Source: Streptomyces katrae
Lineage (GTDB): Bacteria > Actinomycetota > Actinomycetes > Streptomycetales > Streptomycetaceae
Length of the DNA stretch: 64,000 nucleotides
Direction: 5' to 3'
Assembly: GCF_002028425.1 (NCBI RefSeq)
Contig: NZ_CP020042.1
Span: forward strand, 4,030,001-4,094,000
The notes beneath the pieces are model-generated. The model was not told the origin of the DNA. It saw only the letters and a list, made by a program, of their open reading frames with translations, and did not search any database. The translations under genes were made by a program, and so were the position numbers. Positions 39,967 through 51,247 of the stretch are shown here, piece by piece (the stretch's first letter is position 1; each line of letters starts with the position of its first letter).

Positions 39967-40065
39967 GGGTGCCAGCCCCTCACGTGGCGCTATCTCACCC
40001 AACTCCCCCAGGGCCGGAAGGCAGCAAGGGTAAGTGGGCTCTGGCGGGTGCGTGGGGGGCGCTTT
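39967..40065 (+). ncRNA. ffs: Signal recognition particle RNA (small bacterial type)
   Basis: It contains the universally conserved helix 8 tetraloop region GGGCCGGAAGGCAGCAAGGG (about 40011-40030), and the outer strands GCCCCTCACG and CGTGGGGGGC pair. TAGGGT at 39961-39966 is a suitable -10. It lies between tRNA-Ser and dnaX, the usual place. The ends are approximate by a few bases. Confidence 0.85.
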
Positions 40066-40123
40066 GCGTTCCGGGGGCGGCGGCGGGCGGCCGTTGTCGG
40101 TGGGCCCGGATAACCTCGTAGAC

Positions 40124-48762: not shown

Positions 48763-48835
<73 letters not shown>

Positions 48836-50894: not shown

Positions 50895-50929
50895 GACAGA
50901 GGCCCCGATCGAAGATCGGGGCCTCTGTC
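50895..50929. terminator. Terminator after tRNA-Gly copy 2
   Basis: A 16-bp perfect stem GACAGAGGCCCCGATC / GATCGGGGCCTCTGTC with loop GAA; related core to the terminator at 48724. Confidence 0.85.
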
Positions 50930-50934
50930 ATCTG

Positions 50935-51007
<73 letters not shown>

Positions 51008-51088
51008 ATACCCAGCTACGACCCGAGAGCCGTTGGCTGTGTGCCTCACTCTACCTGATCCACGACCGTGGTCGGTAAAGCGATGCAG

Positions 51089-51160
51089 AGCGGGTGACAG
51101 GGATTGCACACTGCGCCTCCCCCCTGGAAGGGGGGTGTTCTGCTACTGAACTACACCCGC
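51089..51160 (-). tRNA. Aberrant tRNA-Gly (anticodon TCC)
   Basis: A 72-nt tRNA-like gene. Acceptor GCGGGTG/CACCCGC, D stem GTTC/GAAC, anticodon arm CCCCC-CT-TCC-AG-GGGGG and discriminator T73 are perfect. The T arm is not: CAGTG-TGCAATC-CCTGT has mismatches at 49-65, 50-64 and 52-62, and T55 is G. The D loop AGTAGCA has A where G18 should be. Glycine identity elements remain, so charging is plausible, but EF-Tu binding and folding look compromised. Either a pseudo-tRNA or a tRNA used outside the ribosome. Confidence 0.75.
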
Positions 51161-51247
51161 ACGACTTCGGTTCCCGGCCTTCCGGCCTGGCCCCTCGGCG
51201 TGATCCACACATTAGCCGATCGGAGGGGGTGCATGGCAAATCCGGGG

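Follow-up and report, generated by a model that had tools for sequence, protein, structure and literature searches.

A genus-wide tRNA-Gly(UCC) of Streptomyces with an altered elbow and T arm, a candidate glycine donor for cell-wall synthesis

Staphylococcus aureus possesses three tRNA-Gly species in which the T-stem pairs 49-65 and 51-63 are converted to A-U and the D-loop bases 18-19 to UU or CU (PMC4052509). The same review describes the diversion of aminoacyl-tRNAs in other bacteria as somewhat unclear in most instances, and reports that natural-product pathways of Streptomyces draw on aminoacyl-tRNAs (PMC4052509). FemX of Streptomyces coelicolor attaches a single glycine to the precursor, and precursors lacking this residue are reportedly lethal (PMC4790382). 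Pseudo-tRNAs with regulatory roles have also been reported (PMC3399842). Here, we describe a structurally deviant tRNA-Gly gene of Streptomyces, for which a search of the open-licence literature returned no title, and weigh the roles that its conservation and predicted structure suggest.

The window analyzed is a stretch of 64,000 nucleotides from Streptomyces katrae (contig NZ_CP020042.1). The deviant tRNA-Gly(UCC) gene occupies positions 51089..51160 of the minus strand, 72 nt including the discriminator U73, with the CCA not encoded; ARAGORN places it at 51088-51160(-), with the anticodon UCC at 51126..51128 (-). A cloverleaf, U33 and a purine at 37 (A37) are all present, and the intact acceptor, D and anticodon stems, U73 and C35/C36 noted by an earlier sequence-only reading are indeed seen in the window. 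The features of an ordinary elongator that it lacks are a UUC T loop, the G18 G19 pair of bases and an unbulged five-pair T stem: A18 (51144..51144, -) replaces G18, and G55 (51107..51107, -) replaces the usual U55, the pseudouridine site. The two normal tRNA-Gly genes that the same reading had placed nearby are both tRNA-Gly(GCC), one on the same strand 81 nt downstream (50935..51007, -) and the other about 2.1 kb further (48763..48835, -), each called by ARAGORN and Rfam. Against the Rfam tRNA model the deviant gene scores 48.6 bits, compared with 69.7 and 69.6 for these two neighbors. The neighboring proteins are Lsr2, PurS, a PurQ-like amidotransferase and a histidine kinase; elsewhere in the window, Rfam identifies a bacterial small SRP RNA at 39971-40069 (+).

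Besides the deviant gene, the S. katrae genome carries normal tRNA-Gly genes with UCC, CCC and GCC anticodons. Its normal tRNA-Gly(UCC) (G000:C1:2763548) has the same acceptor stem, discriminator, anticodon and, in the bulged register described below, variable-region length. It differs in its G18 G19 D loop, its T loop UUCGAUU and its unbulged T stem GCGGG/CCCGU, and the deviant tRNA is one base longer. Aligned over the D loop, the deviant tRNA reads A14 G15 U16 A18 G19 C20 A21 and the normal UCC species A A U G G U A. All five ordinary glycine tRNA sequences of this genome have G49.U65, C50-G64, G51-C63 and a UUC loop, as opposed to A51-U63 and UGC in the deviant tRNA, and a UGC T loop is absent from the ordinary tRNAs of the genome. 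The possibility that the deviant gene is the sole UCC isoacceptor, and so essential for reading GGA, was rejected for S. katrae since a normal copy exists; a normal UCC gene was found as well in the two further genomes checked (G047 and G050). Three other low-scoring tRNA-like genes of S. katrae (L064, L085 and L086), some with UCGA in the T loop, are perhaps pseudogenes.

The gene is kept throughout the genus. A pattern that fixed the D arm and left the T arm free, so that T-arm invariance could be read among the matches listed, was applied to 392 Streptomyces genomes, and the gene was found in 391 of them: 389 matched exactly, 2 carry variants and 1 had no match. Two of the three genomes missed by the exact pattern carry the gene twice, with an acceptor pair changed in compensation from U-A to C-G. 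The sole genome without a match (G642; 7.7 Mb, 99% complete, 160 contigs) reflects either loss or an assembly gap. BLAST recovered the gene in 61/61 Streptomyces genomes and, in an order-level sample, in 132/132, and a T-loop pattern applied to a class-level sample of 394 genomes recovered it in all 40 of the Streptomyces genomes there; the samples of 61, 40, 132 and 392 overlap. Among the matches listed in a scan of named records, 79 of 80 belong to Streptomyces and one to 'Actinobacteria bacterium OK074'. The class-sample and named-record patterns fixed part of the T arm, and its invariance in those two sets is partly by construction. In all 61 genomes of the first BLAST sample the gene has A18 and an identical T arm except for R57, Y60 and one bulged C. 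Six of these 61 genomes hold tandem arrays of two or three copies; two or three copies occur in several genomes, and Streptomyces sp. I05A-00742 (L209) has four pattern matches in a row. As run, ARAGORN calls the gene in 13 of the 61 genomes and misses it in 48.

Loci from several searches, amounting to 231 overlapping occurrences, were pooled into 45 distinct sequences. The scan that defined them required GCGG..TAGYTYA..UUCC..CCGCT and scored a gene as deviant if its D loop contained AGTAG or its T arm GTGC; under these criteria no gene emerged from one of the 80 named loci. Over the 45 sequences the T arm is nearly invariant, and A18 and G55 are present in every one, confirming these two departures as real. 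U73, C35, C36, the UCC anticodon and a paired acceptor stem are likewise found in 45/45, the acceptor ends and UUCC having been selection criteria. Compensated pairs occur in the acceptor stem (6-66, in gene numbering), the D stem (11-23) and the anticodon stem (26-42, 28-40, 29-39, 30-38 and 31-37). Over 210 contexts, the information content is 1.84 bits per site within the gene, compared with 0.40 for the 100 upstream bases and 0.37 for the 60 downstream bases. The gene is real and, because it is kept across the genus, conserved beyond chance. The Streptomyces-wide search that the sequence-only reading had proposed thus returned a fixed deviant T arm beside compensated changes in the other stems. 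Neither absence from close relatives nor random decay in the stems, two of the outcomes named as counting against a function, was seen. A third such outcome, a normal UCC isoacceptor together with accumulating mutations, was borne out by half: the normal gene exists in S. katrae, and the free accumulation of uncompensated changes that would mark a pseudogene was not found.

Among the class, order and other-family samples searched, the deviant tRNA was found in Streptomyces only. Seven genomes outside the genus match the T-loop pattern in the class sample, none of them tRNA-like on reading. When 78 chosen genomes of other families were scanned with a glycine tRNA pattern containing UUCC, 74 matched, and every tRNA among the matches listed combines a UUC T loop with G18 G19; this pattern requires GCGG/CCGCT and TAGYTYA, so that deviant tRNAs of another build would escape it. 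Two of these other-family genomes carry a second tRNA-Gly(UCC). The one in G061, of the same order (C19:709191; L121 1002-1073), has C37, normal D and T loops and a T stem that is rich in A and U and carries one additional base on its 3' side; the one in G117 (C100:5752-5824; L164) has the T loop UUCGCGA. A phage search gave no match to the deviant tRNA, and a plasmid search gave one weak match, in Methylibium (80.3%).

The distribution of FemAB proteins (PF02388) is wider. In the class sample 179 of 394 genomes have a hit at E <= 0.001, 177 of them over the cut-off; these comprise 40/40 Streptomyces genomes and 139/354 others, and FemAB is also present in 15/15 other-family genomes of the order. 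Since FemAB occurs in many genomes where the deviant tRNA was not found, a one-to-one link between this tRNA and FemX was rejected; FemX therefore does not need such a tRNA. S. katrae encodes a FemAB protein (C1:3937174-3938250) that does not reach the NCBIfam thresholds of named Fem transferases, and which we take to be FemX from its Pfam match and from general knowledge of the genus. The deviant tRNA gene (C1:4081089) lies about 143 kb from it, and not in a femX/VanK locus.

Alignment of the upstream regions revealed a promoter-like block, whose function we infer. In the window it comprises a -10-like element, TAATGT (51209..51214, -), and, separated by a 19 nt spacer, a -35-like element, TTGCCA (51234..51239, -). 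TANNNT followed by CACDCC occurs in 175 of 207 upstream contexts and in 18 of 2000 random windows, the latter drawn from loci that include the deviant gene itself. TAGAGT is the commonest -10-like form in the genus (112/175 contexts), and TTG stands 19 nt (173) or 20 nt (2) ahead of the -10 motif. Among the 32 contexts lacking the block, six of the eight shown belong to the second or third copy of a tandem array and two are slight variants. A generic promoter scan, which accepts only 16-18 nt spacers, reported no promoter at the gene. Downstream, 60 of 61 loci have a tRNA-Gly(GCC) in the same orientation, and so do 79/79 testable loci among the 80 named ones; in the one exception just 128 bases are left. 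This constant arrangement suggests that the two tRNAs are probably made as one transcript. An inverted repeat recognized by eye after the tRNA-Gly(GCC) (50898..50926, -) is a possible transcript end; it has no T run, and a terminator scan found none.

The T arm is the most unusual part of the molecule. The sequence-only reading had taken it as broken, with mismatches at 49-65, 50-64 and 52-62. These mismatches are an artefact of register: with one inserted U, a five-pair stem forms in all 45 sequences. In this register the arm (51097..51114, -) reads G49 C50 A51 G52, a bulged U, G53, the loop UGCAAUC, then C61 C62 U63 G64 U65, with the pairs 49-65 G.U, 50-64 C-G, 51-63 A-U, 52-62 G-C and 53-61 G-C. 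The bulged base between 52 and 53 (51110..51110, -) is U in 44 of the 45 sequences and C in one; pair 49-65 is G.U in 44 and A-U in one, and A51-U63 is present in all 45. The T-stem cells pair in 225/225 cases in the bulged register and in 90/225 in the ungapped one, and the whole-gene model energies, with the other helices held fixed, are -26.0 and -18.5 kcal/mol, respectively; the ungapped register is ruled out on both grounds. Without its bulged U, the T stem (GCAGG/CCUGU) is identical to that of the genome's own tRNA-Pro(GGG) and of one tRNA-Met, and A51-U63 is likewise present in tRNA-Pro and tRNA-Met. The case from the T stem for escape from EF-Tu is weaker than first made, since 49-65 keeps G.U; the differences are confined to pair 51-63, the bulged base and the elbow positions 18 and 55.

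A shifted hairpin, GCGC-AGU-GUGC, competes with this arm and pairs in 179 of 180 cells over the 45 sequences. At -28.0 kcal/mol it is about 2 kcal/mol better than the bulged T arm in the secondary-structure model, and the free minimum-energy prediction for the gene contains it. In two sequences the ensemble gives the T arm pair probabilities of 0.02-0.10 and the shifted hairpin 0.62-0.81; in a third, both fall below 0.01. A G45 to A variant (genomes G189, G667 and G812) disrupts a pair of the shifted hairpin and none of the T arm, and a G47 to A variant is compatible with both. Judged by pairing across the 45 sequences, two mutually exclusive T-arm folds are conserved. In our view the bulged arm is the one that most likely forms once the tRNA is folded, because tertiary contacts, which count there, are absent from the model. 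The T arm may nevertheless be labile, given that the folding model prefers the shifted hairpin.

A second tRNA-like RNA of Streptomyces has a similar loop. S. katrae carries two identical genes for it (L078 61-131 and 15609-15679; G000:C1:4498060 and 4513608), here termed class 2, with the T loop UGCAAGG; among 57 distinct tRNA sequences of the genome, only class 2 and the deviant gene have UGCA there. The two copies score 36.7 bits with the Rfam tRNA model and were not listed in a wider Rfam scan. Relatives occur at 134 places in 68 plasmid records (66 Streptomyces, 2 Streptantibioticus; up to 8 per record) and have the near-invariant T arm GCAGG-UGCAAGG-CCUGC. No protein genes were listed under the plasmid matches shown, two of the records being unannotated and the tables holding no RNA genes. 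Eighteen plasmid regions were fetched (L324-L341; NZ_CP108443 twice), and all carry GGTGCAAG in this T arm. Their anticodon-stem changes preserve pairing (CCCCA/UGGGG, CCCCG/CGGGG), 16 of the 18 have a UUCC loop (not L339 and L340), most have a hairpin, seen by eye, directly downstream, and in three a DUF6009 gene lies upstream. Six plasmid relatives matched no Rfam family, tRNA included, at the gathering score; a pattern scan of viral contigs gave 0 matches to class 2, and a phage search gave none. Class 2 is not scr3559, which is described as 6S-like. Homology between its T arm and that of the deviant tRNA is not claimed: they agree at 14 of 17 positions, but tRNA-Pro and tRNA-Met agree too, and the start of the loop, UGCAA, is all that is special to the pair.

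The persistence of a second, deviant tRNA-Gly, accompanied by a normal one in the genomes checked for it, suggests that it has a role of its own, perhaps the supply of glycine to the cell wall. The acceptor stem, U73 and C35/C36, which we take to be the glycine identity nucleotides for GlyRS, are invariant, and charging by GlyRS is for that reason likely. Under thermodynamic compensation, the weak binding of glycine by EF-Tu has to be offset by a strong T stem. Poor EF-Tu binding would follow from A51-U63, the bulged stem and the replaced 18-55 contact; with G at 55 no pseudouridine is possible, and the contact is replaced by A and G. The normal UCC gene relieves the deviant tRNA of decoding in S. 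katrae. We propose that GlyRS would charge the deviant tRNA with glycine, that the product would bind EF-Tu poorly and stay free, and that its glycine would be handed to FemX, which would place the single glycine bridge on the wall precursor. A FemX donor is plausible because 40/40 Streptomyces genomes of the class sample have FemAB. A dedicated glycine tRNA that is specialized away from decoding, escapes EF-Tu and probably serves FemX is the explanation we put first, at a little under even chances. Somewhat more tentative is its full form, a genus-wide non-ribosomal tRNA-Gly that the bulged T stem and rewired 18-55 elbow bar from EF-Tu and that FemX uses, having arisen independently of the staphylococcal tRNAs by a different structural route. 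Several observations stand against a wall donor: UCC and U33, which such a donor does not strictly need, are kept, FemAB is widespread, femX is distant, G49.U65 is strong, A51-U63 recurs in the genome's own tRNA-Pro and tRNA-Met, and the folding model prefers the shifted hairpin.

The main rival, which we consider rather unlikely, holds that the gene encodes a translation-competent second decoder of GGA whose odd T arm is tolerated, which enlarges the glycine tRNA pool through its shared transcript with tRNA-Gly(GCC), and whose unusual elbow simply became frozen in Streptomyces. Such a decoder fits the retained anticodon, U33 and A37 and the other three stems, kept with compensated changes, as it does the probable common transcript with a decoding tRNA, the retention of G49.U65 and C50-G64, the G53-C61 pair still offered by the bulged stem, and the presence of U54, C56, A58 and G19. 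Set against these are the normal UCC gene in each of the three genomes checked and a UGC T loop shared with no ordinary tRNA of S. katrae; so strict an upkeep of the deviant T arm appears to reflect selection more than tolerance.

The conservation of two exclusive T-arm folds, the non-tRNA one being better in the folding model, raises instead the idea of a tRNA-derived regulatory RNA, charged little or not at all, that acts as a sensor of glycine charging or an mRNA partner in the manner of tRNA-Other of Bacillus cereus. Precedents for pseudo-tRNAs in such roles (PMC3399842) and the UGCAA T loop of other tRNA-like RNAs in the genus fit this idea. The presumed GlyRS identity nucleotides, superfluous in an uncharged RNA, are nonetheless invariant, there is no known target, and the G45 to A variant of three genomes breaks the alternative fold and spares the T arm; we judge a regulatory RNA improbable. 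Slightly less probable still is a glycine donor for a non-ribosomal enzyme other than FemX, such as a natural-product aminoacyl transferase or a lipid-aminoacylating enzyme. Natural-product pathways that use aminoacyl-tRNAs are indeed reported for Streptomyces (PMC4052509); a gene present in 391 of 392 genomes points more to a core process. Such pathways are patchy between species. Finally, a decaying pseudogene, the other role offered by the sequence-only reading, to which the T-arm and D-loop departures from consensus, an intact UCC copy elsewhere and the ARAGORN calls in just 13 of 61 genomes might point, is refuted by the same departures being fixed throughout the genus, alongside compensatory changes in the other stems, and we give it almost no weight.

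The deviant gene amounts to a natural experiment on the tRNA elbow: one RNA in which A18, G55 and an inserted T-stem base have all become fixed. As a candidate it is small, present across the genus and recognizable by its structure, and its host is amenable to genetics, which makes the question of its role testable. Its omission by ARAGORN, as run, in 48 of 61 genomes means that tRNA counts for Streptomyces may be wrong.

Among described systems, tRNA-Other of Bacillus cereus is likewise a tRNA variant and reportedly non-translational. It has a Trp anticodon, lies beside a genomic island and is part of a larger regulatory RNA, whereas the Streptomyces gene lies beside tRNA-Gly(GCC) and is kept across its genus. 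The non-proteinogenic tRNA-Gly species of S. aureus carry a UCC anticodon, and in the wall tRNAs of Staphylococcus epidermidis GUGC replaces GTPsiC, as it does in the deviant tRNA. Further features shared with the S. aureus FemXAB donors are reported to be extra genes beside normal ones, A51-U63, a changed 18-19 region and a glycine-bridge host with Fem enzymes (PMC4052509, PMC9976931, PMC3656896). The resemblance is partial: where S. aureus has A49-U65 the Streptomyces tRNA keeps G.U, and where S. aureus changes G18 G19 to UU or CU the Streptomyces tRNA has A18 G19 in 45/45 sequences, only G18 being changed. The bulged U in the T stem is found in the Streptomyces tRNA, unlike the S. aureus type, and the role of the former is a candidate one. 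If that role is correct, Streptomyces would have arrived at a cell-wall tRNA of its own, separately from Staphylococcus and through other structural changes.
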